NCBI GenBank assembly: GCA_947525975.1
Contig: CANNVE010000014.1
Location: 1-64,000 of the forward strand
Length of the DNA: 64,000 nucleotides
Direction of reading: 5' to 3'
Source of the DNA: an uncultured Muribaculaceae bacterium
GTDB lineage: Bacteria > Bacteroidota > Bacteroidia > Bacteroidales > Muribaculaceae
Every line of letters starts with the position of its first letter. Position 1 is the first letter of the stretch. Made by a program: the position numbers and the translations under genes. Under the pieces are notes generated by a model. That model searched no databases. It had not been told where the DNA came from and was given only the letters and a program-made list of their open reading frames with translations. Positions 238-14,497 of the stretch are shown here, piece after piece.

Positions 238-912
238 TCAGAGCTCGGTGGCCTCAACGATTTTGCCGTCGAAGAGGTTGATGATGCGGTCGGTGTATGC
301 GGCATCGTGTTTGCTGTGGGTCACCATCACGATGGTGGTGCCGTCGCGGTGGAGCTCGCTGAGGAGATTCATCACTTCCTCGCCATTCTTGGAGTCAAGG
401 TTGCCGGTAGGCTCATCGGCGAGTATCAGCTCGGGGCGCGACACCACGGCGCGGGCTATGGCGGCGCGCTGCTGCTGACCGCCCGAAAGCTGCTGCGGGA
501 AATGCTTGGCGCGGTGGCTGATGCCCATGCGCTTCAGGGCCTCGCGCACCATCTCCTTGCGCTCCGAGGCCTTGATGCCGAGATACTGCAGGGGCAGCTC
601 CACGTTCTCCTCGATGTTGAGCTCGTCGATGAGGTTGAAGTTCTGGAACACGAAGCCGATCTTGCCCTTGCGGAGCGATGTGCGGTCTTTCTCCTTCAGG
701 CCGCTCACCTCGGTGCCGGCGAGGGTGTATTTCCCCGATGTGGGATTGTCGAGCAGCCCGAGGATGTTGAGCAGCGTAGACTTGCCGCAGCCCGAGGGGC
801 CCATGATGGCGATGAATTCGCCCTTATCAACGTTGAATGACACGTCGCGCAGCGCGAGGGTCTGGACGTCCTCAGTGCTGAACGTCTTGCAGAGGTTTTC
901 GATCTTGATCAT
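238..912 (-). CDS. ABC transporter ATP-binding protein (LolD/MacB-type)
   Basis: This 224-residue ATPase is the size of a stand-alone LolD/FtsE/MacB-type nucleotide-binding domain. Walker A GPSGCGKST is at residues 38-46, the ABC signature LSGGQQQ at 142-148, and Walker B LILADEP followed by TGNLD, typical of this family, at 162-173. It should sit on the cytoplasmic face and power mechanotransmission by FtsX-type permeases rather than classical substrate translocation. It is the last gene of a minus-strand operon, 42 bp after a permease gene. It is the only ATPase in the operon, so it presumably serves all three permeases. The substrate cannot be read from sequence. Confidence 0.95.
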   Translation of the reverse strand: MIKIENLCKTFSTEDVQTLALRDVSFNVDKGEFIAIMGPSGCGKSTLLNILGLLDNPTSGKYTLAGTEVSGLKEKDRTSLRKGKIGFVFQNFNLIDELNIEENVELPLQYLGIKASERKEMVREALKRMGISHRAKHFPQQLSGGQQQRAAIARAVVSRPELILADEPTGNLDSKNGEEVMNLLSELHRDGTTIVMVTHSKHDAAYTDRIINLFDGKIVEATEL

Positions 913-954
913 GATTTTATATTTTTGTGTTGTTATTTTTTCTTTAAGTTTGCG

Positions 955-3312
955 TCAATCATTTTTTCTCAAAACTTCGATCGGGTTGGCATTCGCCGCG
1001 CGACGGCTCTGCACCACCACCGACAGGAAGCACACAATCAGAGCCTGGGCTATGGCCACCGCGTAGATCCATGCGTAGAGGTCGATGCGATAGGAATATT
1101 CCGACAGCCAATCGCTCATCACATAGTAGATGACAGGGATGGATATGAGCGCGGCGATGCCCACATAGGTCATGAACGACCTCACAAGGCGCGTCAGCAC
1201 AGAGGCGCTTGAGCCGCCCATCACCTTGCGCACGGCAATCTCCTTCGAGCGCTGCTGCACATAGAACGTAGACATTGCCACCAGGCCGAGCATCGAGATA
1301 ATCACCGCTATGCAGGCGAATACGGCAATGATGATGGAGAGCTTGTGCTGGCTCTCATAAATGCGTTTGATAATATCATCGAGGTAACAATCATTGAAAA
1401 TATAATCGGAATATCCCTGATACACATTGTTGTATGCCTCCTTTATCTGCTGCAAGGCCGCGTATTCGTCTCCATTCACCTTTATCAGGAAGATCCATGG
1501 GCCGAAATCCACTCCGGGCTTGCCAATGCTGATGAGCACGGGATGCTGATCGGCGAGAACATCGCCAATAAGAAAATCCTCTGTGATGCCGGCTATCGGC
1601 ACACGATTATTTCCATAAGGGAAATCGACAGCATCCTCATCTATTCCGAACTCGGCCAAAGTCTGCATATTGACATAATTTTTATTTGCGCTCGCAAGAT
1701 GATTGTCTTTCTTAAGCTTCAGCCCGAGAAGATCCATATAGTTTGAGTCGGCGCAGAACGTCTGCAATGATATGGTCTTTCCCTCATGTACCATAGTGTT
1801 GTTGTTGCCGCGTCCCAATGGAGCCGACCAGCATACGCTGACCTTGTCTACGCAAGCCATGCCGTTGAGCTCCGACAGGAAGGCTTCGTCTTTCTCCCCC
1901 TCCCAAGGATAAGAGATCTGCATGATGCCCTTGGTGTCGTATCCAAGAGGCGCGTTGATCAGGTGGCGCACCTGCATGAACATGGTGATGGCCGACGCCA
2001 CGAGCACGATGGTGCAGACATTCTGCAGGATGATGAATATCTTACCGAACACCATGTTTGACCGGCGCTTCACGCCGCCCTTGACGGCATCGATGGGCTT
2101 AACCGACGATATCAGCATGGCCGGGGTGATACCCGAAGCTACGCCCATCACCAGAATCACGCCCACGGCAAATGCCACTGTCGCGGCGTTGACGCAGGCC
2201 ACGAAGTCGATCGGGGTGTCGAGCAGCTCCTCGGCGTAGGGCTTGGCCAGATAGGCGAATCCGATGCCGATGGCGAACGAAACGGCGCACATCAGCGTGC
2301 TCTCGCATATCAGCCTCCACATCACCCTGCCGCGGCTTTCGCCCAGCAGGCGGCGGGTGGCCATCTCCTTGGCGCGCTTGCCGGCAAGAGCCACCGTGAG
2401 GTTGATATAGTTCATCACCGCGAACAGCAGGATCACTATTCCCGTCAGGAAAAGCAGCTTGGTGAGCTTGGGATTGCCGAGGTTGATGTTTCCGCTCGAG
2501 GAGCCGATGCCGGAGAAATACTCATCCTTGAAAGGCACAAGTATCAGCTTGGTCTCCTGTCCCGGCATCTGGAGTATCCAAAAGTGCTCTTTAAGCGCTT
2601 CATTGTATTTGTCGACCATAGCCTCCAGATCGTATCCCTCCTTGGCCACGAGCACCACGTCGGCGCCGGTGGCGTTGTTCATGCCCTCGTTTGTCATAGA
2701 AGTGTTGACGTATTTCATCATGCTGAAGTTGAGCAGCATATCTACGGGACGGTGATCATGCGTCATCAGCATGGTGTTGGTCATCGGCTCCATCACGCCC
2801 GTCACCACGAACGGCTCCTCATATTGGCTGAAGACTATCGTCTTGCCCATCGGATTCTCATCACCCCACACCTTGCGGGCGTACTCCTCGGTGACGATAG
2901 CCGAGCGCGGATCGTCGAGCGCCGTGCCGGGGTCGCCCTGCAGCATCTTGAAGTCAAAGACGTCGTAGAAAGTAGAATCCACGAAGAAGCAATCCGTCTC
3001 GATATTCTCGTCATTGTACACGAGCCAGCGGTGATTGCGGAAAATAGCCGTGGAGGTCTCTATCTCCGGAAATTTATCGCGGAGCACATGCTGCACCCTC
3101 CAGTGGGTGCCGAGGTTTTTGCCCCGCTCGCCGCCAAAGTCAAGGCCCACCCAGTACATGCGGTCAGCCTTTGTCTGCTGCGAGTCGATGTGGGTCTCCT
3201 GCCACCAGTAGCAGCCGATGATGACCACAAACATCATGCTCAGCGCCAGGCCCAGCACGTCGATGAGCGCGTAGGCCTTGTTGCGCCGAAGGAAGTTGAA
3301 GTAGCTTTTCAT
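955..3312 (-). CDS. ABC transporter permease with FtsX/MacB-like domains
   Basis: The 785-residue product begins with a cytoplasmic stretch and a membrane segment at about 14-36. A large periplasmic MacB_PCD-like domain follows (about 40-280), then a three-helix FtsX block starting near 285 with the characteristic AGKRAKEMATRRLLG segment. A second periplasmic domain and a second FtsX block follow (about 660-775, with QQRSKEIAVRKVMGG). There is no ATPase domain, so it relies on the ATPase encoded 42 bp downstream. It is closely similar throughout to the product at 8512-10857: both start MKS(Y/F)FNFLR and both contain WQETHI and the AGKRAKEMATRRLLG block. The two are probably a within-operon duplication. 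The gene starts 2 bp after the preceding permease gene ends. Confidence 0.93.
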   Translation of the reverse strand: MKSYFNFLRRNKAYALIDVLGLALSMMFVVIIGCYWWQETHIDSQQTKADRMYWVGLDFGGERGKNLGTHWRVQHVLRDKFPEIETSTAIFRNHRWLVYNDENIETDCFFVDSTFYDVFDFKMLQGDPGTALDDPRSAIVTEEYARKVWGDENPMGKTIVFSQYEEPFVVTGVMEPMTNTMLMTHDHRPVDMLLNFSMMKYVNTSMTNEGMNNATGADVVLVAKEGYDLEAMVDKYNEALKEHFWILQMPGQETKLILVPFKDEYFSGIGSSSGNINLGNPKLTKLLFLTGIVILLFAVMNYINLTVALAGKRAKEMATRRLLGESRGRVMWRLICESTLMCAVSFAIGIGFAYLAKPYAEELLDTPIDFVACVNAATVAFAVGVILVMGVASGITPAMLISSVKPIDAVKGGVKRRSNMVFGKIFIILQNVCTIVLVASAITMFMQVRHLINAPLGYDTKGIMQISYPWEGEKDEAFLSELNGMACVDKVSVCWSAPLGRGNNNTMVHEGKTISLQTFCADSNYMDLLGLKLKKDNHLASANKNYVNMQTLAEFGIDEDAVDFPYGNNRVPIAGITEDFLIGDVLADQHPVLISIGKPGVDFGPWIFLIKVNGDEYAALQQIKEAYNNVYQGYSDYIFNDCYLDDIIKRIYESQHKLSIIIAVFACIAVIISMLGLVAMSTFYVQQRSKEIAVRKVMGGSSASVLTRLVRSFMTYVGIAALISIPVIYYVMSDWLSEYSYRIDLYAWIYAVAIAQALIVCFLSVVVQSRRAANANPIEVLRKND

Positions 3313-3314
3313 AT

Positions 3315-5678
3315 CTAATCGTTTTGGTTTATTATTTCTGTAGGATTGAAATTCGAGGCGTGGGCGGCGCGGAACGCCACAATTCCGATTATGATCGCGA
3401 ACAGCGCCGTCCCGATGCCGAGCAGCTGCCAGATGGTGAGCGGACTACTCTGCATGAAGTTCTCCAACCAATGCAGGCCGGCCATCTGCCCGAGAGCCAC
3501 GCCAATCGCGATGGCCGGAACGGAAAGGATGGCGACATCCTTGCTCACCACTCTCACCACATCGGTGGTCTCCGCGCCATTGACCTTGCGGATGGCAATC
3601 TCGCGCCTGCGGCGGTTGATCTCGTCAACAGTGTATCCAATCAATCCGGCCAAGGCTATCATCAGCGCCACCAGGCAGCATATCATCAGCGAATCACGCA
3701 GATTCCTCTCTTTTACAAACTGATATTCTATCTCCTGATATATCGATGACACATTGCAATCCATCGCTTTTGACAGATCAGATATCACATCTTGCGACAA
3801 GTCTTTAAGCTTTATCAGCATTATATTCGGTGGGAAGTAGCTGTTTCCGTTAAGGTCGTAGAACATGACCGAAGGCCGCTGCTCCTGATTGTCGACCGTG
3901 CCGATTCGAAAATCTTCGTAAACGCCTACAATCGTGAACAGATCATCGCCTGTATCGCTATGCTCGCTGAACTTCAGTTTCTTGCCTATGGGGCCGTCAG
4001 ACCATCCGGCCAGTTTGTCAACGCTCTCCACAAACGACCGGCTCACCATTATGTTTTTGTCATTGAGCCGGCCGGGAGGAAAGATTTCGCCTTCAACCAC
4101 GGGAATCTCTAGCACATCGAAGTAATTATCGCTGATAGAATACAGGTCGGCGAAATTGACCAGCACTTCATCGCTTCCCGGCAAGAAAGCATTGTTGCCG
4201 CTTGATCTCGTCCACAGTTTCTGTGAGCAGAATGACACCTGCTCAACAGCCGGATTTTTCCTTGCTTCCTGCTCCAAGGCCAGCCTGCGCTGATAGTCAA
4301 ATCCCACATATGCCACTGCGAGCCTATCGTAGGAATATCCGGCTTCAGCCTTGAAGATGTAATCGTATTGCTTTACCATCGTGGCCATCACGGTGATAAG
4401 GAATGAAACTCCCAGGAATTGCACAAAGAGCAGCGTCACCTTCCACCAACGCTTCTTCCCGACTGCCCCCCGAAAAGCCACCGCCACGGGCACATTGCTG
4501 TATATCGCTGACGGCACCCACACGGCCACAATCATGATAAGAGCCAACACACCGCAAAGGATCATGAGCGTGGTCGGAGCGAAAAGCGCTTTGAAGCTCA
4601 CCTGCATCAGACGAATCACTGTCTCTCTGAACACGAACACAAGCCCGGCGGCTATGGCAAGAGCCAAAAGCAGATGCACAGTGACTTCGGCCAATGTACG
4701 CAATGTGATCTCGCGTCGGCCTGCACCATAGCACTTCTCGATAGCCGTGGCACGCGAACGGCTCACCATCGTAGAGACAACGAGCAAAATATAGTTGAGC
4801 ATAGCGATCACTATCAGCATGATTCCAAGCATCAGCATCATCCTGTTGGATGCCTTGACCTCCGGTTCATCAGCATGGATGGAAAGCAAGGGCGACACAC
4901 CATACCTTATATCGGAATTATTGCGCACCATCTCTTCGAGATCTACATGCCTGCCCTGCACCTTGCGGATTTCCTGCTCCAGAGCATCGATGTCAGTGCC
5001 GGGATGCACCTTTACATATCCTTGATACCTGTCGTTGCCATACCAATTAGACAGGCTCCTCTCACCCATCACATTGATCGAAAAGAGCATATCGGCACAA
5101 AAATGCGTATTTTCGGGAAAATCCTCAAATATGCCGGTCACTGTGAATAACTGGCCTCCAATCTCGGCATATTGCATAGCCATGCCCATCGCCTTTTCAG
5201 GCCCACCGAGCACATCGGCAAACGACTTTGAGATCATGATATTATTTATATCAGATAGAGCTGTAAGGTCGTTACCCAACACCACAGGCAGAGAAAGTGT
5301 GCGAAGGAAGAGACTGTCGACCGCATAAGCCCTCATGCTCAAAGAGTCGTTATTTTCAGTGATCAGCAGTTGCACGCCAACTTCCGACATGACAGTACCT
5401 GTCTCGATCTGCGGAATTTCGTCACGCATCGCCGGGAGCACTGCTCCGCTGATACTGGGAAATGTCACCATGCCTTGTGAGCCACCGCGATCAAATGATT
5501 CCACCATACGGTAGATGCGGTCGGCGTCGGCGATGAAGTCGTTGTATGATCGCTCGAAGCATACCTTGGCTATCAGCAGCAGGCCAAGGGCGAGACCGGC
5601 GGCAAGGCAAAGGATCTTGATTATGTTGCCGTTGCCCCGGCGGAAGAGGCTGCGCAGGGCAAGTCTGAAATAATGCAT
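3315..5678 (-). CDS. ABC transporter permease with FtsX/MacB-like domains (divergent)
   Basis: At 787 residues it has the same layout as its neighbours: an N-terminal membrane segment (about 20-40), a periplasmic core, an FtsX block starting near 278, a second periplasmic domain and a C-terminal FtsX block with RRREIAIRKVNGAE. Its sequence is clearly more distant from the other two permeases than they are from each other. It may therefore be the obligate heterodimer partner of one or both. It lies 12 bp after the adaptor gene and 2 bp before the next permease gene, which implies tight translational coupling. Transported substrate unknown. Confidence 0.93.
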   Translation of the reverse strand: MHYFRLALRSLFRRGNGNIIKILCLAAGLALGLLLIAKVCFERSYNDFIADADRIYRMVESFDRGGSQGMVTFPSISGAVLPAMRDEIPQIETGTVMSEVGVQLLITENNDSLSMRAYAVDSLFLRTLSLPVVLGNDLTALSDINNIMISKSFADVLGGPEKAMGMAMQYAEIGGQLFTVTGIFEDFPENTHFCADMLFSINVMGERSLSNWYGNDRYQGYVKVHPGTDIDALEQEIRKVQGRHVDLEEMVRNNSDIRYGVSPLLSIHADEPEVKASNRMMLMLGIMLIVIAMLNYILLVVSTMVSRSRATAIEKCYGAGRREITLRTLAEVTVHLLLALAIAAGLVFVFRETVIRLMQVSFKALFAPTTLMILCGVLALIMIVAVWVPSAIYSNVPVAVAFRGAVGKKRWWKVTLLFVQFLGVSFLITVMATMVKQYDYIFKAEAGYSYDRLAVAYVGFDYQRRLALEQEARKNPAVEQVSFCSQKLWTRSSGNNAFLPGSDEVLVNFADLYSISDNYFDVLEIPVVEGEIFPPGRLNDKNIMVSRSFVESVDKLAGWSDGPIGKKLKFSEHSDTGDDLFTIVGVYEDFRIGTVDNQEQRPSVMFYDLNGNSYFPPNIMLIKLKDLSQDVISDLSKAMDCNVSSIYQEIEYQFVKERNLRDSLMICCLVALMIALAGLIGYTVDEINRRRREIAIRKVNGAETTDVVRVVSKDVAILSVPAIAIGVALGQMAGLHWLENFMQSSPLTIWQLLGIGTALFAIIIGIVAFRAAHASNFNPTEIINQND

Positions 5679-5690
5679 ATATGTGGGGAA

Positions 5691-6965
5691 TTAGTCGTTG
5701 ATCGATAGGATTTCCTTATCTTTGTAGGCTTCGTATCCGTTGAGGATGACCTTTTCGCCGGGGTCGAGGCCTTCGAGCACCTCATAGTATTGCGGATTCT
5801 GGCGGCCAAGGCGTATCTGCCGGCGGTAGGCCTTCTTTCCGTCCTTGTCAAGCACGAATATCCATTTGCCTCCGGTGGTCTGGAAGAATGTGCCGCGAGG
5901 TATGAGCACAGCCTTGGCCGACTGGCCGAGCTGGAGATTGAGGTAGTAGGTCTGGCCCGAGCGTATCTTTTCGGGATACTCGCCGTCAAACACAAATTCC
6001 ACCCTGAATTTCCCCTCCCTCACCTCGGGATACACCTTGCGCAGACGTAGATTATAGGACTTGCCCTCGCGCTCGCAAGAGGCTTCAAGGCCGGTGTGCA
6101 CGCGGTCGATGTAATGCTCGTCGATCTTGGCCTCCACCTTGTAGTTGCTCAGATCGTTTATCTGTCCAACCTTGGCCCCGGCGCTCACGTTCTGCCCGAG
6201 CTCCACGTCGAGCAAGCCGAGCTCTCCGTCTATGGGGCTGACAACATTGAGGTGCTCCTTGCGCTCACGGATGAGCACCACGTTGCGCTGCATGTTGGCG
6301 AGGTTGTCCTCCATCTGCTCCACCTGGCTCAGGCGGAAAATGCTGTCTTTCTGCAGGCGCTGGTCTATGAGCTGGCTGCGGCGCATGGCCAGTTCGTAAT
6401 CTTCCTTGGCCTTGAGGTATTCCTCGCGACTGTTGAGGCGCTCCTTCTGCAGGCGTTCCTGCTGGCGGAAAGCGCGCTCCTTCTGCACCACGTCGAGATC
6501 GATCTGCAGCTTTTCATTGCGGTTGTTGAGCAAATCCTGCTCCATGCTGATCTGGGTGTTGCGCAGTATGTTCTGCTTCTCGGCAAGCTCGGCCTCTGCG
6601 TTGAGTATCTGCAGGTCGAGGTTTGAATTGCTCAGGCGTATGATCACATCGCCCTTCTTCACGGTGGCACCCTCCTCCACCACCTTCTCGCGCACTATGC
6701 CGCCCTCCTCGGGGCTGATCTGCACGGTGCTGATGGGGAGCACATTTCCGTCTACGCGGGCGAAATCGTCAAACTGCCCGTCGATCACGCTTCCGATGTT
6801 GAGCCCGCGACGGTCGATTTTGAGAGTGCTTGCCACATCGCTGGTGGCAATCCAGGCCACAAGGCCAATGATGACTGCTCCCCCTATGATATAAGGAAGA
6901 TGCTTTTTGCGAATGCCTTTCTTTTCAGGTAATTGAATATCCATAGTGTTTTGTTTTTTAATCAT
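5691..6965 (-). CDS. HlyD/MacA-type periplasmic adaptor (membrane fusion protein)
   Basis: The 424-residue protein has a short basic N-terminus, one membrane anchor at about 24-45, a split lipoyl/barrel-sandwich domain (EEGGIVREKVVEEGATVKKG before the hairpin; VVSPIDGELG after it), a long coiled-coil hairpin at about 120-240 rich in Glu, Gln and Arg, and a beta-barrel/membrane-proximal region to the end. It should bridge the FtsX-type permeases and the TolC-like channel encoded just upstream. Two ATG starts are possible, 6965 and 6944. The second has a strongly A-rich leader typical of Bacteroidota and would shorten the protein by 7 residues. The domain content does not depend on the choice. 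Confidence 0.93.
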   Translation of the reverse strand: MIKKQNTMDIQLPEKKGIRKKHLPYIIGGAVIIGLVAWIATSDVASTLKIDRRGLNIGSVIDGQFDDFARVDGNVLPISTVQISPEEGGIVREKVVEEGATVKKGDVIIRLSNSNLDLQILNAEAELAEKQNILRNTQISMEQDLLNNRNEKLQIDLDVVQKERAFRQQERLQKERLNSREEYLKAKEDYELAMRRSQLIDQRLQKDSIFRLSQVEQMEDNLANMQRNVVLIRERKEHLNVVSPIDGELGLLDVELGQNVSAGAKVGQINDLSNYKVEAKIDEHYIDRVHTGLEASCEREGKSYNLRLRKVYPEVREGKFRVEFVFDGEYPEKIRSGQTYYLNLQLGQSAKAVLIPRGTFFQTTGGKWIFVLDKDGKKAYRRQIRLGRQNPQYYEVLEGLDPGEKVILNGYEAYKDKEILSIND

Positions 6966-7047
6966 TTAGTTATGGAGGGGCAATTTAAAATCGCCTTATA
7001 TCGCGGCTGCCCTTCCACGAAGCCCTTCCATGCGACCCTTACGCAAT

Positions 7048-8385
7048 CTACCAGAGACGGTCGCCTTTGTAGTATCCCACGAGGCGATTCTTCATGTAGT
7101 AGAGCAGGCGGCGCTGCAGCAGGTCGATGCGGCTCTGATAGTAGGTGTTTTCTGTGGTGAGGAGGTCGATGACCGAAAGCATTCCCTCGTCGCACTTGCG
7201 CTTGGCGAGAGCGTAGGTCAGGCTGTCGGCCTCAACTTTCTTCTCCAGGCTCACGATTTCCTTGAAGTATCCGTCGCGGTCATTGACAGCGGCGGTGATG
7301 TCGTTGTATAGCTTCAGCCGCGATTCTTCGCGCTCTATCTGCGCCACATTGTAGTTGTTGCGGGCGCGGCGCAGCGATGAGTGGCGGCTGAATCCGTTGA
7401 AAATAGGTATGCTGACGCTCGCTCCCACATATTTGCCGAGATTATTGCGGAATTGAGAACTGAAGCTTGCGGCGTTCGACTCCACGCCGAGAGCGCGGAA
7501 ATAATTGGTGCTCAAGCCGGCCTGCACTGATATCTGAGGCGAGAAAGCGCCCTTGGCGGCCCTATAGGCGTAGCGCGACATATTCACGTTGAGGTCAGCC
7601 ATCCGCGCTTTGGGATTGCTATAGAGAGCGCACTGATATATCTGCTCCGGGTCATCGATCTGCATCGCCGGCTCTGGCAGGCCGGCGATATTGCCATTCC
7701 ATGCGTCGAAATCGCGCATGGCGGGATCTAGATTCATCGCATCCCACAGGCTGAGGCAAGCCATCTGATAGGCATTGCGCCTCTGCACAAGGGCGTATTC
7801 GTCATTTGCGGCCTGAGCCTGTCGCTGCGCCAGATCAGGCATCCCTATCATGCCGAGGTCAAACTCCAATTTGGCCTTTTCAAGCGCCCGGCGGCTTTCG
7901 GCCACCTTGTCTTCGGCCACCTCTATCGTGCCTTTGCAATACACAAGCTCCACATAGGCCGACATCACCGCGATGGCCTTTTCGTCGCGGGCATCCTGCA
8001 AAGCGTCCTTGCCGTATTTCTTGCTTTCGCGCGCCTGCTTGAAGCGGTTGAGGGTCTGAAGGCCGTCAAACAGATTCAGCCCCGCGTATGCTCCATATCC
8101 GTTGTTGAAAGTTGTCACCGTGTTGTAGGTGTTGGTCTCCGGGTCGATGTTGCGGCCCCAATTCCACTGCACGCTCGATGATGCCGACACCGTGGGCAGG
8201 AATCCGCCCACAGCCTGCAGATAGTCAGCCTTGCGGCTGTCGAGGTCCAATTCGGTCTTCTTCACAGAAGCGCTGTTCTCCACGGCGTACTCTATGCATC
8301 GGTCGATGGTCCAGGCCTCTTGCGCCCGGGCGCCAAAGAAGGCGCCCGCGGCGAGGGCTAATATAAATGTTTGTTTTGCAGTCAT
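7048..8385 (-). CDS. TolC family outer-membrane efflux channel
   Basis: From the ATG at 8385 the protein has 445 residues. It opens with a signal peptide (MTAKQTFILALAAGAFFGA, cut near ARAQ), followed by two repeated TolC-type helical/beta units. Typical motifs are the early IDRCIEYAVENSASV and the mid-protein DLNVNMSRYAYRAAKGAFSPQIS. An in-frame start 20 codons upstream exists but would put a charged tail before the signal peptide, so 8385 is preferred. It sits between the first permease gene and the adaptor gene and should form the outer-membrane exit duct of this exporter. Confidence 0.92.
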   Translation of the reverse strand: MTAKQTFILALAAGAFFGARAQEAWTIDRCIEYAVENSASVKKTELDLDSRKADYLQAVGGFLPTVSASSSVQWNWGRNIDPETNTYNTVTTFNNGYGAYAGLNLFDGLQTLNRFKQARESKKYGKDALQDARDEKAIAVMSAYVELVYCKGTIEVAEDKVAESRRALEKAKLEFDLGMIGMPDLAQRQAQAANDEYALVQRRNAYQMACLSLWDAMNLDPAMRDFDAWNGNIAGLPEPAMQIDDPEQIYQCALYSNPKARMADLNVNMSRYAYRAAKGAFSPQISVQAGLSTNYFRALGVESNAASFSSQFRNNLGKYVGASVSIPIFNGFSRHSSLRRARNNYNVAQIEREESRLKLYNDITAAVNDRDGYFKEIVSLEKKVEADSLTYALAKRKCDEGMLSVIDLLTTENTYYQSRIDLLQRRLLYYMKNRLVGYYKGDRLW

Positions 8386-8511
8386 ATCATATCTGTTATC
8401 GGTTTTCGGCACATCTCCGCAGACAGCGGAATCTCTGAAATCCATACACTTATTACCATTTATCTAACTGTATTGTCCGCCATCCGCGGGGTGCCGTCTA
8501 CCTCAATTAAA

Positions 8512-10857
8512 TCAATTTGCTTTCAATCTGTCCACCGGGTTTGAATTAGCCACTGCGCGCGACTGCGCATAGACTATCGCCACCGTGAATGACATCACCA
8601 ATGCGAATGTCAGGGCGAAGAGCCACCAATAGACCGGTATGCGGTAGCTGAATTGCGAGAGCCAATCGCCAAGCAAGTGGTAGGCCAGGGGCACGGCGAT
8701 GACAAAGGCCACGATTATGTATGCGCCGAAAGTAATTGTCACGCGCCTTATGATGCCGGCTGCCGTTGACCCGAACACCTTGCGCACGGCTATCTCGTTC
8801 TCGCGCTGCTGCACATAATATGTGCTGATGGCCATGAGGCCGAGAAGCGAAATCAGGATGGCAACCGAGGCGAAGATGGCCATGATGATCGACACGTTTC
8901 TTTGATCTTTGTATTGCGACTCTATATAGTCCTCGGCGAAATATTCTCCTTGTTCAAGAGGAATCGGACTGACATCCTCGTAGATCTCGCGCACCTGCTC
9001 AAGCACAGCGACAGGATCGCCCTCAAATTCCAAGAACATTGTCCAGGGGTTGGATATTTCATTAATCTCAAGCGCCTTGCAGGGGTTCTGCTCGGCCAGC
9101 ACCGAACCTACGTGGAAATCTTTGATCACGCCGGCGATCGGCAATCGCCAGGTGCGGAACGGAAAATCCACAGCATCCTCATCAAGCCCAAGCTCCGCGA
9201 GCAGACCCGGAGTCACCCATACACCGCCGTCGACATTGTTGTCGCGAAGCACTTCGATGCTCCAGAAATCCATGAATGTGGAGTCGGCGTTGAATACGTT
9301 GGCGTAGATATTCTTTCCCTCATATTCCCACGAGGTGGTCGACGACCCGGTGAGCGGATTGCCATAGCAATTCACCACCTTTTTTATGGCCGGGAGCTGA
9401 AGGCACTTATCGTGTATGATCTTCATCCTCCACTCGCCTATGCCCGCATTTCTTATCATCATTTTGCCGGAAGGGTCATATCCCAACGGAGCGTTGACCA
9501 GATGGCGCACTTGCAGGAACATGCCCAGGGCACACACTATCATGGCTATCGTGATGGCATTCTGCACCACAATGATCACCTTGCTGAAATACATCTTTGT
9601 GCGGCGACGGAATGTGCCCCTGACCACATCTACAGGCTTGCTCGATGAGATCAGCATAGCCGGGATGATGCCGGCGGAAAGGCTTATTACAGCGTATACG
9701 CCCACGGCCAAGGCAATGGTGGCAGGAGTGACGCACGCATTGATGTCGATGTATATGTCGCACAGCGTGTAAGCGTAAGGCTCGGCCAGATAGGCAAGCA
9801 ATAAGCCTATGGCCAAAGACAAGGCGCACAGCAGCGCGCTCTCGCCTATGAGCCTGCCCACGATGGCGGCGCGCCGGCTGCCAAGCAAGCGGCGAGTGGC
9901 CATCTCCTTGGCGCGCTTGCCGGCAAGGGCCACTGTGAGGTTGACATAATTGAGCATCGCGAAGAGGAGGACGACACCACCTACTGCCGCAAGCACCTCC
10001 ACCATATCCTTGTCGCCGGAGATGTGGTTGCCGGTGCTTGAATAGACACCATCGTAGTAGATAGATTTTAACGGAAATATTTCAAGTTTCCACTCGTTTT
10101 CCGTTCCTATATTTGACAGATTCTTGAAATTATCGCGCATGAACTGCTGGTATTTGTCCACATTCTCCGTCAGATCCACGCCCGGGGCTGCGAGCAGATA
10201 GAGGTCGCAACCGCCCAATTGGGCCATGTCCTTGTCGAATATCCACGATGCTCCGGTGTATTCCTCCATCTCTATGCGGCAGATCATATCGGGCTTCTTC
10301 CTGTCCCAAGTCTGGAAAAGGCTCTGTTCGGGCATCTTCATCACTCCGTTGACAATGAAATAAACCGAATCGGCCTGCCAGCTGAAGCGCTTGCCAATGG
10401 GATCGCCGTCGCCGAAATTGGCCTTCGCGTATTCCTCGCTCACTATCACCGAATGCTTGTCGGCAAGGGCTGTGCGGGGATCGCCCTGCTTGAGCTCGAT
10501 ATCGAATATGTGGAGGAAAGCGGAATCGACAAACAAGGTGTTGGTGACCACATCTCGGTCATCGATGTGGAAACCCGGAGAAGTCATGATCACCGCGGCG
10601 GTGCTCTCGATTTCAGGGAAAGCGTCTCTCAAATGAGGCTGAAGCGCCCAGGGGCCGCTGGTGAATCTATTGCCGCTCTGCGATGTGAATCCCATGGCGT
10701 AAATGCGGTCGGCCTTGTCATGGCAGTGACCTATGTGGGTCTCCTGCCAGGCGTAGGCTCCGATCAATATCACAAACATGAAACTGACCGACATGCCGAA
10801 GACATCTATCACGGCGTAGGCTTTGTTGTTTCGCAGAAAGTTGAAGAATGATTTCAT
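8512..10857 (-). CDS. ABC transporter permease with FtsX/MacB-like domains (first gene of operon)
   Basis: The 781-residue permease has the two-block architecture described for its neighbours: N-terminal membrane segment, MacB_PCD-like domain, FtsX block with AGKRAKEMATRRLLGSRR, second periplasmic domain, and C-terminal FtsX block with QQRENEIAVRKVFGS. The ATG at 10857 (MKSFFNFLRNNKAYA) is preferred because it aligns with the start of its paralogue at 3312; a TTG-type start 3 codons upstream is the alternative. It is the promoter-proximal gene of the exporter operon. A sigma-54-type promoter 39-55 bp upstream points to control by the NtrC-family regulator encoded at 11875-13206. Confidence 0.92.
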   Translation of the reverse strand: MKSFFNFLRNNKAYAVIDVFGMSVSFMFVILIGAYAWQETHIGHCHDKADRIYAMGFTSQSGNRFTSGPWALQPHLRDAFPEIESTAAVIMTSPGFHIDDRDVVTNTLFVDSAFLHIFDIELKQGDPRTALADKHSVIVSEEYAKANFGDGDPIGKRFSWQADSVYFIVNGVMKMPEQSLFQTWDRKKPDMICRIEMEEYTGASWIFDKDMAQLGGCDLYLLAAPGVDLTENVDKYQQFMRDNFKNLSNIGTENEWKLEIFPLKSIYYDGVYSSTGNHISGDKDMVEVLAAVGGVVLLFAMLNYVNLTVALAGKRAKEMATRRLLGSRRAAIVGRLIGESALLCALSLAIGLLLAYLAEPYAYTLCDIYIDINACVTPATIALAVGVYAVISLSAGIIPAMLISSSKPVDVVRGTFRRRTKMYFSKVIIVVQNAITIAMIVCALGMFLQVRHLVNAPLGYDPSGKMMIRNAGIGEWRMKIIHDKCLQLPAIKKVVNCYGNPLTGSSTTSWEYEGKNIYANVFNADSTFMDFWSIEVLRDNNVDGGVWVTPGLLAELGLDEDAVDFPFRTWRLPIAGVIKDFHVGSVLAEQNPCKALEINEISNPWTMFLEFEGDPVAVLEQVREIYEDVSPIPLEQGEYFAEDYIESQYKDQRNVSIIMAIFASVAILISLLGLMAISTYYVQQRENEIAVRKVFGSTAAGIIRRVTITFGAYIIVAFVIAVPLAYHLLGDWLSQFSYRIPVYWWLFALTFALVMSFTVAIVYAQSRAVANSNPVDRLKAN

Positions 10858-10895
10858 CGTTGACAAAAAAAATGTTTATTCTGCCTTACATAACA

Positions 10896-10912
10896 TGCCA
10901 AGACCGTGCCAA
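10896..10912 (-). promoter_or_regulatory. Sigma-54 (-24/-12) promoter of the ABC exporter operon
   Basis: Read on the minus strand the site is TTGGCACGGTCTTGGCA. It matches the sigma-54 consensus YTGGCACGRNNNTTGCW at 16 of 17 positions, with GG and GC separated by exactly 10 bp. The -12 element ends near 10897, so transcription should start near 10885 and give a leader of about 28 nt before the ATG at 10857. No TAnnTTTG box for the housekeeping sigma factor is visible in this gap. An NtrC-type activator is encoded about 1 kb away. The site is seen directly; its activity is inferred. Confidence 0.75.
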
Positions 10913-10927
10913 ACTCATAATATACTG

Positions 10928-10941
10928 ATTGCCACAGCAAT
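10928..10941. promoter_or_regulatory. Small dyad upstream of the sigma-54 promoter
   Basis: ATTGC-CACA-GCAAT is a perfect 5-bp dyad centred about 50 bp upstream of the predicted sigma-54 start. It could be a binding site for a regulator or for a bending protein. It is short enough to occur by chance. Confidence 0.25.
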
Positions 10942-10957
10942 GTCACAATACAACAAA

Positions 10958-10990
10958 ACGGCGAGTGTCAAAAATTTTGACACTCGCCGT
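10958..10990. terminator. Long palindrome: terminator for the lipoprotein gene and/or enhancer site
   Basis: ACGGCGAGTGTCA (10958-10970) pairs perfectly with TGACACTCGCCGT (10978-10990) across an A/T-rich centre. On the minus strand it follows the stop codon at 11010 by 19 bp and is itself followed by TTTTGTTGT, as expected of an intrinsic terminator. Plus-strand sequence after the stem is also T-rich. It is centred about 89 bp upstream of the predicted sigma-54 start of the exporter operon, a usual distance for an enhancer bound by an NtrC-type protein, so a double role is possible. Confidence 0.7.
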
Positions 10991-11009
10991 CAATTATTTT
11001 TACATCAGC

Positions 11010-11414
11010 CTACAATTCCGCCGAAGGCACGGTGATGGCCACGGTGTCGGCTTCGGTGCAGAAAAGCATCTGCAGAGACGCGCCTTTCTCTTTGATAAGG
11101 CTCACGGTGGCGCCGACATCGGTGGTGTCAGGCTGCTCACGCATGAATCGGGCAAAATCATCGCGAAGCAAATCGGAATGCGCGCGTATGGCGCTCAACT
11201 GCACCTCAGATTCCGCCACATTCACGTAGGCGCTGACAGTGGAGTCGGCGTATGCAAGCCTGTCGAGGGTCATGCCGTAGCCCATGTCCTGCGGCAGATG
11301 GCGGTTCGACTCCTCTACCTGACGCTCCAGCGGATCACCGCCGCATGCCGAAATAGCGGCTGACAGAAGCAGGGCTGCCGCCGCCGGCAACCACCTGCCC
11401 TTGAAAAGTCTCAT
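11010..11414 (-). CDS. Small predicted lipoprotein of unknown function
   Basis: The 134-residue product starts with a basic n-region, a hydrophobic stretch (about 8-22) and a lipobox ending in AISAC with the acceptor Cys near residue 24, so a lipid-anchored envelope protein is likely. The rest is hydrophilic with alternating strands and helices and no motif I recognise. It lies 15 bp downstream of the helical-protein gene and probably shares its promoter. Its position between the exporter operon and the NtrC-type regulator suggests an envelope-related role, but that is only context. Confidence 0.8.
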   Translation of the reverse strand: MRLFKGRWLPAAAALLLSAAISACGGDPLERQVEESNRHLPQDMGYGMTLDRLAYADSTVSAYVNVAESEVQLSAIRAHSDLLRDDFARFMREQPDTTDVGATVSLIKEKGASLQMLFCTEADTVAITVPSAEL

Positions 11415-11429
11415 GCGTCCCGGTGCTTT

Positions 11430-11756
11430 TTATTTTGAAGCCTTGTTGATCACTTCAAGCACGGAGTTGATGCCGTCCTTGTATTCAGCCATGGCCTTGT
11501 CATAGGCCTCGCTGAAGTATGCGCTCCTTGCTTTCTTGTAAGCGGCGGGCGACTCGAAGGCCGAAGGCTGCTTGTCAAACGATATGTTGATGCGCTTCAC
11601 CACCTCATTGTGCAGAGTGGCGAGCTTTGTGAGCATCTCGTCGGCTTGGGCTTCGGTTATGATTTCAGCGAGCACGGCCGAGGGGAGCACATATTGCACC
11701 ACGGCGTTGTTGAGCTCGTTGATGTACTTTTTAAGGTCTCTTTTGCTTGTAATCAT
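11430..11756 (-). CDS. Small helical protein of unknown function
   Basis: From the ATG at 11756 the product has 108 residues, is mostly charged and helical, has no signal peptide or membrane segment, and ends in EVINKASK. The open frame continues far upstream, but that part lies antisense to the response-regulator gene and is not credible coding sequence. A TATCTTTG -7 box at 11780-11787 (minus) gives a start site just upstream of this ATG, supporting the short form. It is transcribed divergently from the response regulator. Family and role not recognised. Confidence 0.75.
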   Translation of the reverse strand: MITSKRDLKKYINELNNAVVQYVLPSAVLAEIITEAQADEMLTKLATLHNEVVKRINISFDKQPSAFESPAAYKKARSAYFSEAYDKAMAEYKDGINSVLEVINKASK

Positions 11757-11779
11757 ATTGCGGTGTATTATTAATATGG

Positions 11780-11787
11780 CAAAGATA
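11780..11787 (-). promoter_or_regulatory. Bacteroidetes-type -7 box for the 11756-11010 gene pair
   Basis: TATCTTTG on the minus strand matches TAnnTTTG and would place the transcript start about 18 nt upstream of the ATG at 11756. A good -33 TTTG at the usual distance is not obvious. Confidence 0.5.
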
Positions 11788-11862
11788 AAACAATTAATCC
11801 GATATTCATGCTTTTGCGACAGCATTTTTCCTCTTTTTTTCAATCGTATTCGTATTTTTTCG

Positions 11863-11870
11863 TAATTTTG
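11863..11870 (+). promoter_or_regulatory. -7 box of the response-regulator gene, only 4 nt from the ATG
   Basis: TAATTTTG ends 4 nt before the ATG at 11875. Since the transcript start normally lies about 4-6 nt after this box, the mRNA would begin at or within a base or two of the A of the start codon, that is, be leaderless. A -33 TTTG at the usual spacing is not evident. Confidence 0.55.
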
Positions 11871-11874
11871 CGGC

Positions 11875-13206
11875 ATGAAGATTGAAGGCACACTCTTAGT
11901 GGTAGACGACAACAAAGCCATCCTGCAGGCAGTGGAGACACTGGCCCGGCGCACATTCGCCAAGGTTGTCACTACGCCACGCCCCGACGACATCCCGGCG
12001 CTGCTGCGGGCAGAGCGCCCCGCAGTGCTGCTGCTCGACATGAATTTCCGCGCCGACATCAACAGCGGCAACGAAGGCCTGTATTGGCTCAAGCAGGCCC
12101 AAAAGGCATCGCCCTCGACAGCGGTGGTGCTCTTCACCGCATATGCCGATGTGCAGCTCGCTGTCAAAGGCATGAAGGAAGGAGCGGCTGACTTCGTCAC
12201 CAAGCCGTTTGACAACGACGAACTGATGCAGACCCTGGTGCGCGCCGCCGGCAAAGAGGCCTCGGGAAAGCGCCCCGACAGTGGAACGCCACAGATGATA
12301 TGGGGCACATCGCCCGCGATGACGCGCCTGCAGGAAGTGGTGGAGAAGATAGCCGCCACCGAGGCCAACGTGCTCATCACCGGAGAGAACGGCACAGGAA
12401 AGGAATTGCTCGCAAAGGAGATACACCGCCTTTCGGCCCGATCGCAGGCGCCGATAGTCACAGTAGACATGGGAGCGGTGGTGGAGACGCTTTTCGAGAG
12501 CGAACTTTTCGGCCACGCCAAGGGCGCCTTCACAGATGCCCGCGCCGACCGTCCGGGAAAATTCGAGGCCGCCTCCCACGGCACCCTGTTTCTTGACGAG
12601 ATTGGCAATCTCCCCTACCACCTCCAGGCCAAACTGCTCTCGGCCCTACAGCAGAGACGCATCACACGCGTAGGCTCAAACACGCCAATCCCAATCGACA
12701 TACGCCTTGTGTGCGCCACCAACTGTGACCTGCCGCGCATGGTGGCCTCAGGAGAGTTCAGGCAGGACCTATTCTACCGCATCAACACCATCAAGCTCGA
12801 ACTTCCGGCCTTGCGCGAGCGCAAAGACGACATTCCTGTCTTCGCGCGCCATTTCCTTGAAAAGTACGCCAAGGCATACGGCAAAGAGGCGTTTGAACTG
12901 ATGCCTGACGCCTGCATGGCCCTGATGGAGCAGCCCTGGCCGGGAAACATACGCGAACTTGAGCACGTGGTGGAGAAAGCTGTGATCATGGCCGACAAGA
13001 ACGAGCTCGGGGCCACAGACTTCGATCTCAGCCATGCTCCTCAGGCCGCCATTGCCGGCGCAGACGCGCAGACACTCGAAGACATGGAGCGGGCAATGAT
13101 AGCGCGCGCCATAAGCGGATGCGAGGGGAATATGAGCATGGCCGCAAAGCAATTGGGAATCACCCGGCAGACAATGTACAACAAAATGAAGAAATATGGC
13201 CTCTAA
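11875..13206 (+). CDS. NtrC-family sigma-54-dependent response regulator
   Basis: The 443-residue protein has the full three-domain plan. A receiver domain spans about 5-120 with acidic DD at 11-12, phospho-acceptor D55 in LLLDMNF, and the K of TKPFD. An AAA+ sigma-54 activation domain spans about 140-370 with Walker A GENGTGKE. A Fis-type helix-turn-helix lies at the C-terminus (MAAKQLGITRQTMYNKMKKYGL region). The sigma-54-contacting loop reads GAFTDA rather than the textbook GAFTGA. The receiver begins within a few residues of M1, so the ATG at 11875 is well fixed. It overlaps the histidine kinase gene by 11 bp and should be its partner. The nearby sigma-54 promoter at 10896-10912 is its most obvious target. 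Confidence 0.95.
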   Translation: MKIEGTLLVVDDNKAILQAVETLARRTFAKVVTTPRPDDIPALLRAERPAVLLLDMNFRADINSGNEGLYWLKQAQKASPSTAVVLFTAYADVQLAVKGMKEGAADFVTKPFDNDELMQTLVRAAGKEASGKRPDSGTPQMIWGTSPAMTRLQEVVEKIAATEANVLITGENGTGKELLAKEIHRLSARSQAPIVTVDMGAVVETLFESELFGHAKGAFTDARADRPGKFEAASHGTLFLDEIGNLPYHLQAKLLSALQQRRITRVGSNTPIPIDIRLVCATNCDLPRMVASGEFRQDLFYRINTIKLELPALRERKDDIPVFARHFLEKYAKAYGKEAFELMPDACMALMEQPWPGNIRELEHVVEKAVIMADKNELGATDFDLSHAPQAAIAGADAQTLEDMERAMIARAISGCEGNMSMAAKQLGITRQTMYNKMKKYGL

Positions 13207-14497
13207 AGGCTGGACACTCCGGCGCTCTCCCATAGCAGGGTCGGCATTAGCCGCCGCATCCACAATAGCGGCCACGCTGACCTACGGCCAATGGCTCATT
13301 TTCACGGCCTGCTCGATAACAGCCGTCATGGCCTACGCCTCAATCATCAGGTCATATTTCAAGATCAGGCGCAATGTGGCATTCGTGCTTGACGCGGTGG
13401 AGAACCAAGATTTCGCCTTCAGATACACCACCTCTACCCGAAATGCACCTGACGCTTACGTCAACGCATATCTCAACCGGCTTATCGACATACTCGAGCG
13501 CCTCACCGATGACATACGCGAGAAGGACAGATATTATGAAGTGATCCTCAACAGCGCCGACAATGGCATCATCGTGATCGACGAGGCCGGAAATGCGCTG
13601 CACTGCAACAGGGCTGCCCACAAGATGCTGCATACCGACGTAATATCGAAAGTGAGCCACCTGCAGAGAGTGCATCCTTCGCTGCCATCGCTGCTGACCG
13701 CCGACCCGCCTCCTTCATCGATCAGCCTGCAATTGCCCACAGGAAACATGTCGCTGTCAGTTGCCAGGTCGCGCGTGACGCTCCACGGAAAGCAAGTTGA
13801 CATCATAGCCCTGTCTGACATCAGCCGCAGCCTCGTGACCAAGGAACTCGAATCATGGGAAAGCCTGACGCGTGTGCTCACGCATGAAATCATGAACTCG
13901 CTCACGCCGTTGATCTCTATAAGCGACTCGCTCCTTTCAGACCCCGGCGCAGCATTGCCCGACTACCAACGGGGCCTCGCCACAGTGGCGGCCACAGGAA
14001 AAAGCCTTAAGCGATTTGTGGAAAGTTACCGCACATTCGCCAATATCCCCACGCCCAATCCGTCGCCATTCTACGTAAAGCCATTTCTCGCTATGATGCA
14101 GGAGATATGTTCTCACCAGATGTCAGGATCGGCGGTCAAAGTCGATGTCAAGTGCGCGCCATCAGACCTCATGCTCTATGCCGATGAGCAATTGATAGCG
14201 CTCGTGGTCACCAACATCCTCAAAAACGCAATGCAGGCCGTGGCTGAAATCCCGGCTCCTGAAATCAAGATCGAAGCCAGACTCATGGCCGACGAATCGG
14301 TGAAAATCGAAATATCAAACAACGGCCCTGTCATACCCGCAGAGGCTGCCCGCCAGATTTTCCTGCCATTCTTCACCACAAAGCCCAATGGCAGCGGCAT
14401 CGGCCTAAGCATAGCCAAGCGCATAATGGCCGCAAGCGGAGGATCAATCTCTCTGCGCACCCTCCCCCGCACCACATTCACCCTCACCTTCGCCTGA
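13196..14497 (+). CDS. Sensor histidine kinase, partner of the NtrC-type regulator
   Basis: The 433-residue protein has two adjacent membrane segments near the N-terminus (about 12-52) with almost no loop between them, a linker, a PAS-like region (about 112-215), a HisKA motif LTHEIMNSLTPL with phospho-acceptor H230, and a HATPase domain with N-box NILKNAMQAV and G-box GSGIGLSIAKRIM. With so little extracytoplasmic sequence it probably senses a signal in or near the membrane or through the PAS domain. It starts inside the end of the regulator gene, implying translational coupling. Confidence 0.93.
   Translation: MASKGWTLRRSPIAGSALAAASTIAATLTYGQWLIFTACSITAVMAYASIIRSYFKIRRNVAFVLDAVENQDFAFRYTTSTRNAPDAYVNAYLNRLIDILERLTDDIREKDRYYEVILNSADNGIIVIDEAGNALHCNRAAHKMLHTDVISKVSHLQRVHPSLPSLLTADPPPSSISLQLPTGNMSLSVARSRVTLHGKQVDIIALSDISRSLVTKELESWESLTRVLTHEIMNSLTPLISISDSLLSDPGAALPDYQRGLATVAATGKSLKRFVESYRTFANIPTPNPSPFYVKPFLAMMQEICSHQMSGSAVKVDVKCAPSDLMLYADEQLIALVVTNILKNAMQAVAEIPAPEIKIEARLMADESVKIEISNNGPVIPAEAARQIFLPFFTTKPNGSGIGLSIAKRIMAASGGSISLRTLPRTTFTLTFA

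Follow-up and report, generated by a model that had tools for sequence, protein, structure and literature searches.

Control by sigma-54 is little charted in the Bacteroidales, and one in-silico survey from 2025 stood out in the literature searched. The accessible part of that survey reports an enrichment of sigma-54 promoters before COG0577/FtsX-like permeases in Bacteroidia, which its authors present as first evidence (PMC12316311), so that the bare link between sigma-54 and FtsX-type permeases is already in print. It has also been argued in general terms that sigma-54 controls the bacterial exterior (PMC3162934), in a paper whose accessible text makes no mention of Bacteroid-, and the terms sigma54, sigma-54 and RpoN have 0 occurrences in the accessible text of a transcription start site study of B. 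thetaiotaomicron (PMC7366714). Here we describe the window, a stretch of 64,000 nucleotides (nt; positions 1 to 64,000, forward strand) of contig CANNVE010000014.1 from an uncultured Muribaculaceae bacterium (GCA_947525975.1). It carries an operon for a tripartite ATP-binding cassette (ABC) exporter, preceded by a sigma-54 site and an upstream palindrome, and, close by, the genes of an NtrC-type response regulator and a histidine kinase. Comparison with homologous loci argues that the neighbouring regulator very probably exerts dedicated enhancer control of the exporter operon through the sigma-54 promoter.

The survey differs from this analysis in that its accessible text contains no palindrome, spacing or two-component pairing, and neither "UAS" nor "upstream activat" occurs in it (0 occurrences each). 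Relative to that part of PMC12316311, the enhancer geometry and the regulator pairing described here are new. No further paper on either subject was recognised in a literature search conducted mostly outside subscription papers.

The sigma-54 promoter and its upstream palindrome

The promoter, TTGGCACGGTCTTGGCA, lies at 10896-10912 on the minus strand, its GG occupying 10910-10909 and its GC 10898-10897, which gives exactly GG-N10-GC. Scored against the sigma-54 consensus YTGGCACG-N4-TTGCW, it agrees at 12 of the 13 specified positions, the departure being TGGCA for TTGCA; with the four N positions counted, this is the match of 16 in 17, at exact spacing, that a preliminary description of this DNA had given. 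It is the single match in the window at up to one mismatch, and 100 shuffles returned 0. Chance alone would give 2.8 matches to the looser TGGCAC-N5-TTGCW, one mismatch allowed, in a window of such composition, and two were observed, so the lone site is modest evidence and not sufficient. The first ATG of the operon, at 10857, stands 39 nt beyond the -12 GC, and a transcript starting 12 nt past the -12 element, near 10885, would have a leader of about 28 nt, as first proposed. The statement that no housekeeping -7 box is found there also stands for the exact form TAnnTTTG, which is absent from the minus strand between the palindrome and the first ATG; in the surrounding 3 kb it occurs at 10108 (+), 11780-11787 (-) and 11863-11870 (+). 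The genome has one copy of rpoN (156 bits), and the pattern TGGNAN6TTGC is found at 92 sites across it, against 48 for the reversed pattern.

The strongest evidence comes from an element that the preliminary description did not mention. This is a putative enhancer palindrome, TGTC-N9-GACA, at 10966-10982, 53 base pairs (bp) upstream of the -24 element, which reads TGTCAAAATTTTTGACA at 10982-10966 and is the proposed site of the regulator. In the window's own genome, both TGTCNAANNNTTNGACA and TGTC-N9-GACA-N45-62-TTGGCA occur once, in each case at the exporter promoter. A probable second copy, TGTAAAAATAATTGACG, degenerate by 3 mismatches, lies 22 bp further up (10988-11004); in relatives the second copy is placed 21-23 bp up.

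The palindrome was compared across 80 loci with regulator homologues, 55-82% identical by local BLAST, which together with the window amount to 1.41 Mb. Forty-four of these loci have the exporter upstream of the regulator and its first gene inside the locus, giving 45 exporter operons with the window; of the others, L077 is cut and 35 show no exporter match beside the regulator. Sites agreeing at 12 or more of 13 positions number 31 in this total, while the reversed pattern yields 3. The search for the same -24/-12 site before related operons, suggested from the outset as a check, found a site of at least 11/13 around the first exporter gene in 23 of the 45 operons and around 10 of 977 other genes. 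Strict scoring caught only these 23 since some loci do not retain the C of the -12 GC; the -24 half is conserved in the homologous loci.

In the aligned promoters the commonest form of the palindrome is TGTCTAATWATTAGACA, 17 bp long and usually present in two copies. With up to two mismatches, TGTCWAAWWWTTWGACA has 93 occurrences across the 1.41 Mb, and four scrambled palindromes have 1-7 each. A palindrome within two mismatches followed by TGGCA 50-57 bp on was found at 35 of the 45 exporter operons, against 4 of 981 other genes; with a tolerance of four mismatches, the counts are 40/45 and 6/981. Of the four matching controls, two are exporter genes, one is a regulator gene, and the fourth (L136:1306-3606), which encodes a protein without similarity to the exporter set, is left unexplained. 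The operons unmatched at four mismatches include L068, L071 (the locus probably begins within the operon) and L118, in which the gene is miscalled and the palindrome with TTGGCAC is visible on inspection.

In the window, the first palindrome is the centre of a hairpin of 16 pairs (10957-10991, minus strand; -33.7 kcal/mol, z -6.05) that carries a T-rich tail on this strand, and it may therefore have a second role in terminating transcription of the small gene upstream. Taken further, the palindrome would be merely that gene's terminator, and the sigma-54 site would act without it or not at all. The strength of the stem and its T-rich tail favour such a reading, but in the displayed promoters of relatives other than L067 the same 17 bp are kept without the G+C-rich arms, usually twice and with an unchanged distance to the -24 element. 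The hairpin is thus not the conserved feature, and a terminator alone is an extremely unlikely account of the palindrome.

The distance between palindrome end and TTGGCA in the 80 loci clusters at 52-54 bp (32 counts) and at 73-76 bp (27 counts, mostly from the second copy). A spacing ladder of 10.5 bp, with further peaks at 63-65 and 85-87, was dropped because the -12 element often reads TTGGCA, so that the same promoter had been counted twice; only the two main clusters were retained. The fixed upstream distance bears on another possibility, namely repression of the exporter by this regulator or another protein, with the palindrome as the operator. An upstream position does not by itself fix the sign of control, and sigma-54 activators can repress elsewhere; yet a constant distance to the -24 element is the layout of an enhancer, and a sigma-54 promoter requires an activator, which makes repression very unlikely here.

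Genome-wide occurrence of the palindrome

When 393 genomes of the order were searched with TGTCNAANNNTTNGACA-N50-57-TGGCA, 29 sites were found in 16 genomes, against 3 for the reversed pattern. At 24 of these 29 sites (23 of 28 excluding the window) the next gene is homologous to a component of the exporter. Weaker cases among the 24 are L170 and L180, where contig ends leave 48 and 26 residues for comparison, L174 with 23% identity, and L185, where the gene starts 285 nt away. The five sites without an exporter gene lie inside genes that we take to be SusC-like (L169 and L176) or before other genes (L177, L195 and L197); the two inside SusC-like genes look like chance matches. Nineteen of the 35 genomes with a regulator and no adjoining exporter were also searched whole, and the exact palindrome was found in 12 of them. 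It stands at 13 promoters, and all of these (13/13) precede a gene for an ATPase or a permease of this exporter family. Shuffles, reversed patterns, scrambled palindromes, control genes and the blind search all speak against a chance origin of promoter and palindrome, which was rejected.

One genome, G148, has eight sites with palindrome and promoter (L179, L186, L190, L192 and L194-L197). They precede genes for TolC, the ATPase and several separate permeases, as well as two non-exporter genes, presumably for a serine-hydrolase-like lipoprotein and a small secreted protein. In Rikenella-type loci (L122:4308-4346 and L108:1543-1581), the cluster itself contains a second pair of palindromes accompanied by a -24 element, in L122 immediately before the ATPase gene. 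Among the commensals with the module are Phocaeicola vulgatus ATCC 8482, its promoter being in L161, and Bacteroides cellulosilyticus (L150).

These results qualify the description of the locus as a self-contained module. The palindrome is unique in its own genome by both patterns, which agrees with that description. It needs refining in two respects: two other genes intervene between exporter and regulator, and elsewhere the same code marks several operons, so that the module does not always consist of one operon.

Which activator reads the palindrome

The genome encodes three strong sigma-54 activators and two further weak domain matches, and sigma-54 activators can work from elsewhere, so the promoter might be driven by another of them, either the C1 paralogue or the receiver-less activator on C11. 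The first of these belongs to a second exporter module of the same genome (L148), with an adaptor, an ATPase, two permeases of 420 aa, TolC, a regulator 46% identical to that of the window, and a kinase. It has its own promoter, TTGGCACGGCCATTGTG, before the adaptor gene, and a different palindrome, TGTACGGCCATGTACA, 16 bp long and 44 bp away. TGTCCG-type palindromes lie at 42-44 bp in four of six loci of genus relatives; in L200 the distance is 66 bp, and none was found in L201. Overall the paralogue palindrome stands at 42-44 bp in 5 of 7 loci, and the same pattern has 2 matches in 1.39 Mb of other loci. This fits diverged regulators with distinct palindromes, each of which would read its own site. 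The third activator (L149:7033-8292, G000:C11), in which no receiver domain was seen in the frame read, adjoins an LptE gene.

Once the two SusC sites are set aside, 14 site-bearing genomes are left, and 13 of them have a homologue of the window regulator (E <= 1e-100). Presence is a weak test because 205 of the 393 genomes have such a homologue; its nearness to the site, within 3.4 kb in 10 of the 14 genomes, says more. With a paralogue that has an exporter and palindrome of its own and window-type palindromes so close to homologues of this regulator, control by another activator appears very unlikely, and it is the window regulator that we infer to bind the palindrome and to activate the exporter operon.

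Several observations weigh against such dedicated control. The promoter deviates from the consensus within its -12 element, and an E. coli-type scan of 1.3 kb gave three overlapping sigma-70-like matches at 10948-10917 on the minus strand (3 found, 1.1 expected); E. coli-type sigma-70 promoters are not the housekeeping type of this phylum. The window has one good copy of the palindrome, the second having three mismatches, and the good copy lies inside the terminator-like hairpin, which could by itself account for it here and in L067. The exact palindrome was not found in 7 of the 19 genomes searched whole, and L207 (G031) has a -24 element with no TGTC palindrome found. Finally, 205 genomes have a regulator homologue while the exact geometry was found in 16, so the sites of many homologues must be different or further degenerated. 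Against these points stand palindrome and -24 element together at 35 of 45 operons and 4 of 981 controls, the 24 of 29 sites found blindly, and the different palindrome of the second module, and dedicated enhancer control is therefore the best reading. A regulatory link that had first been drawn from family knowledge thus gains the support of comparison.

The mechanism proposed begins with the kinase, which would phosphorylate the NtrC-type regulator. The regulator would then bind the first palindrome (10966-10982) as well as its degenerate copy (10988-11004), where it may oligomerise and, through a short DNA loop of fixed spacing, drive open-complex formation. Sigma-54 RNA polymerase would in this way transcribe the operon from 10896-10912, while the regulator and the kinase would be expressed from a housekeeping-type promoter of their own, for which TAATTTTG, an exact TAnnTTTG box just before the regulator ATG (11863-11870, plus strand), is the candidate -7 element.

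The exporter operon and its relatives

All genes of the operon (238-10857) are on the minus strand, in the order P1-TolC-HlyD-P2-P3-ABC by Pfam domains, and the six are inferred to form one transcript. The first gene, P1 (8512-10857), encodes a duplicated FtsX/MacB_PCD permease, and it is followed by a TolC-type outer membrane channel (OEP; 7048-8445), a HlyD-type periplasmic adaptor (5691-6965), a second duplicated permease, P2 (3315-5678; all four by Pfam and NCBIfam), a third, P3 (955-3312), 44% identical to P1 in sequence comparison, and an ABC ATPase of the MacB/LolD type (238-912). A MacB-like permease, an ATPase, a HlyD-type adaptor and a TolC channel are thus all present, as in a tripartite ABC exporter, and the domains agree with the earlier listing of three FtsX-type permeases, adaptor, TolC and one ATPase.

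With MacAB-TolC and LolCDE the operon shares the ATPase type (MacB 207 bits, LolD 189 bits), the adaptor, TolC, and the MacB_PCD and FtsX domains. Unlike in MacB proper, the ATPase is a separate protein of 224 aa and is not fused to the permease; the permeases are duplicated, at about 785 aa, and P1 matches MacB chains weakly (E 0.003). Long duplicated permeases of the FtsX type are shared with the ADOP family, for which P1 and P2 score 175 and 167 bits against a cut-off of 622. The operon also resembles DarBCD, the ABC transporter of the darobactin cluster according to the accessible part of PMC7616364, below the curated cut-offs: P1 and P2 reach 82 and 72 bits for DarB (cut-off 700), and the adaptor 197 bits for DarC, its nearest NCBIfam model (cut-off 450). 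It differs from DarBCD and ADOP in that one ATPase serves three permeases, and no precursor peptide or modifying enzyme was noted in the operon. By analogy with these ADOP- and darobactin-type relatives, it may be guessed that the substrate of the pump is peptide-like or envelope-active.

Two small genes on the minus strand, absent from the preliminary description, lie between exporter and regulator. One is lipoprotein-like (11010-11414) and the other encodes 108 aa (11430-11756); both are open reading frames with no Pfam family, and both are kept in L067.

The regulator and the kinase

The regulator (11875-13206, plus strand) has the Pfam domains Response_reg, Sigma54_activat and HTH_8, that is, the receiver, AAA+ domain and Fis-type helix-turn-helix of NtrC-type proteins, and the kinase (13196-14497, plus strand) has PAS and HATPase_c domains behind an N-terminal hydrophobic region. 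The sigma-54 activator and kinase that had been placed about 1 kb from the promoter are thus recognised by domain searches as well. The architecture of the regulator is shared with NtrC, ZraR and AtoC; among the nearest solved chains are an NtrC-family regulator (4l4u), ZraR (1ojl) and a response regulator receiver (2qr3), and the nearest NCBIfam models, all below their cut-offs, are PEP_resp_reg, AtoC, NtrC and ZraR. The family differs from these regulators in its sigma-54 contact loop, in having an ABC exporter as its proposed target, and in its own palindrome and spacing. This loop, usually GAFTGA, reads GAFTDA in the window and was found in 72 of 72 homologues as GAFTDA (47) or GSFTDA (25), which are natural variants.

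An extra copy of the palindrome was observed just ahead of the regulator gene in six loci (L098:9928, L119:9925, L127:9925, L112:9926, L137:9926 and L100:4502); in the loci displayed, no -24 element accompanies it there at the customary spacing. Autoregulation through these copies is possible.

No extracytoplasmic domain was seen in the window kinase by domain and hydropathy reading, and it shows one segment above the hydropathy threshold. Among 73 kinase homologues, hydropathy gave two segments in 52, one in 19, none in 1 and three in 1, and the outer loop was at most 16 aa long in 51 of the 53 in which it could be measured. A kinase without a visible outer domain and with such short loops is more likely to sense within the membrane, through its PAS domain or by way of the exporter than through a periplasmic domain. 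The Bce-type transporter-sensing modules of Firmicutes combine a two-segment kinase that has almost no outer loop, as hydropathy suggests for most of these homologues, with an adjoining FtsX-type ABC transporter; they differ in that the regulator of the window is NtrC-type, with sigma-54, its transporter is tripartite, and the coupling of kinase and transporter is putative.

Other sigma-54 sites

Sites of the sigma-54 type were also observed before genes other than those of the exporter. A conserved one precedes a small gene in four loci (L102:18273, L128:17965, L142:18364 and L145:18390), the gene being HSP20 in L128; it reads TTGGCATAAGGTTTGCA in L102, with close variants in the other three. 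A site agreeing at 13/13 positions, TTGGCACGGTATTTGCT, is found some 480 nt ahead of a gene for the chaperonin Cpn60 (L077:3440-3456), where heat-shock control by sigma-54 is possible. GrpE and GroES are reported to be sigma-54 dependent in B. thetaiotaomicron in the accessible text of PMC12316311.

Implications for envelope export in the Bacteroidales

A wider and more tentative proposal is that these loci belong to a widespread envelope-export regulon of the Bacteroidales, with an enhancer code of its own. In this regulon, a kinase without an outer sensor would read the state of the exporter, by transport sensing like that of Bce modules, and the activator would induce a single common ATPase, adaptor and TolC along with varying, exchangeable duplicated permeases, from one operon here and from up to eight scattered promoters in G148. 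Within one cell, the length and distance of the palindrome would separate paralogous modules, one with TGTC-N9-GACA at 53 bp and the other with the 16-bp type at 42-44 bp. Taken jointly, these elements are possible rather than probable.

The rule of palindrome, spacing and promoter predicts exporter genes blindly, which offers a direct route to the members of such a regulon in gut commensals. It also names a candidate activator and makes the substrate of the pump and the signal behind its expression testable. The two types of palindrome in one genome, moreover, provide a clean case of parallel sigma-54 modules that stay separate.

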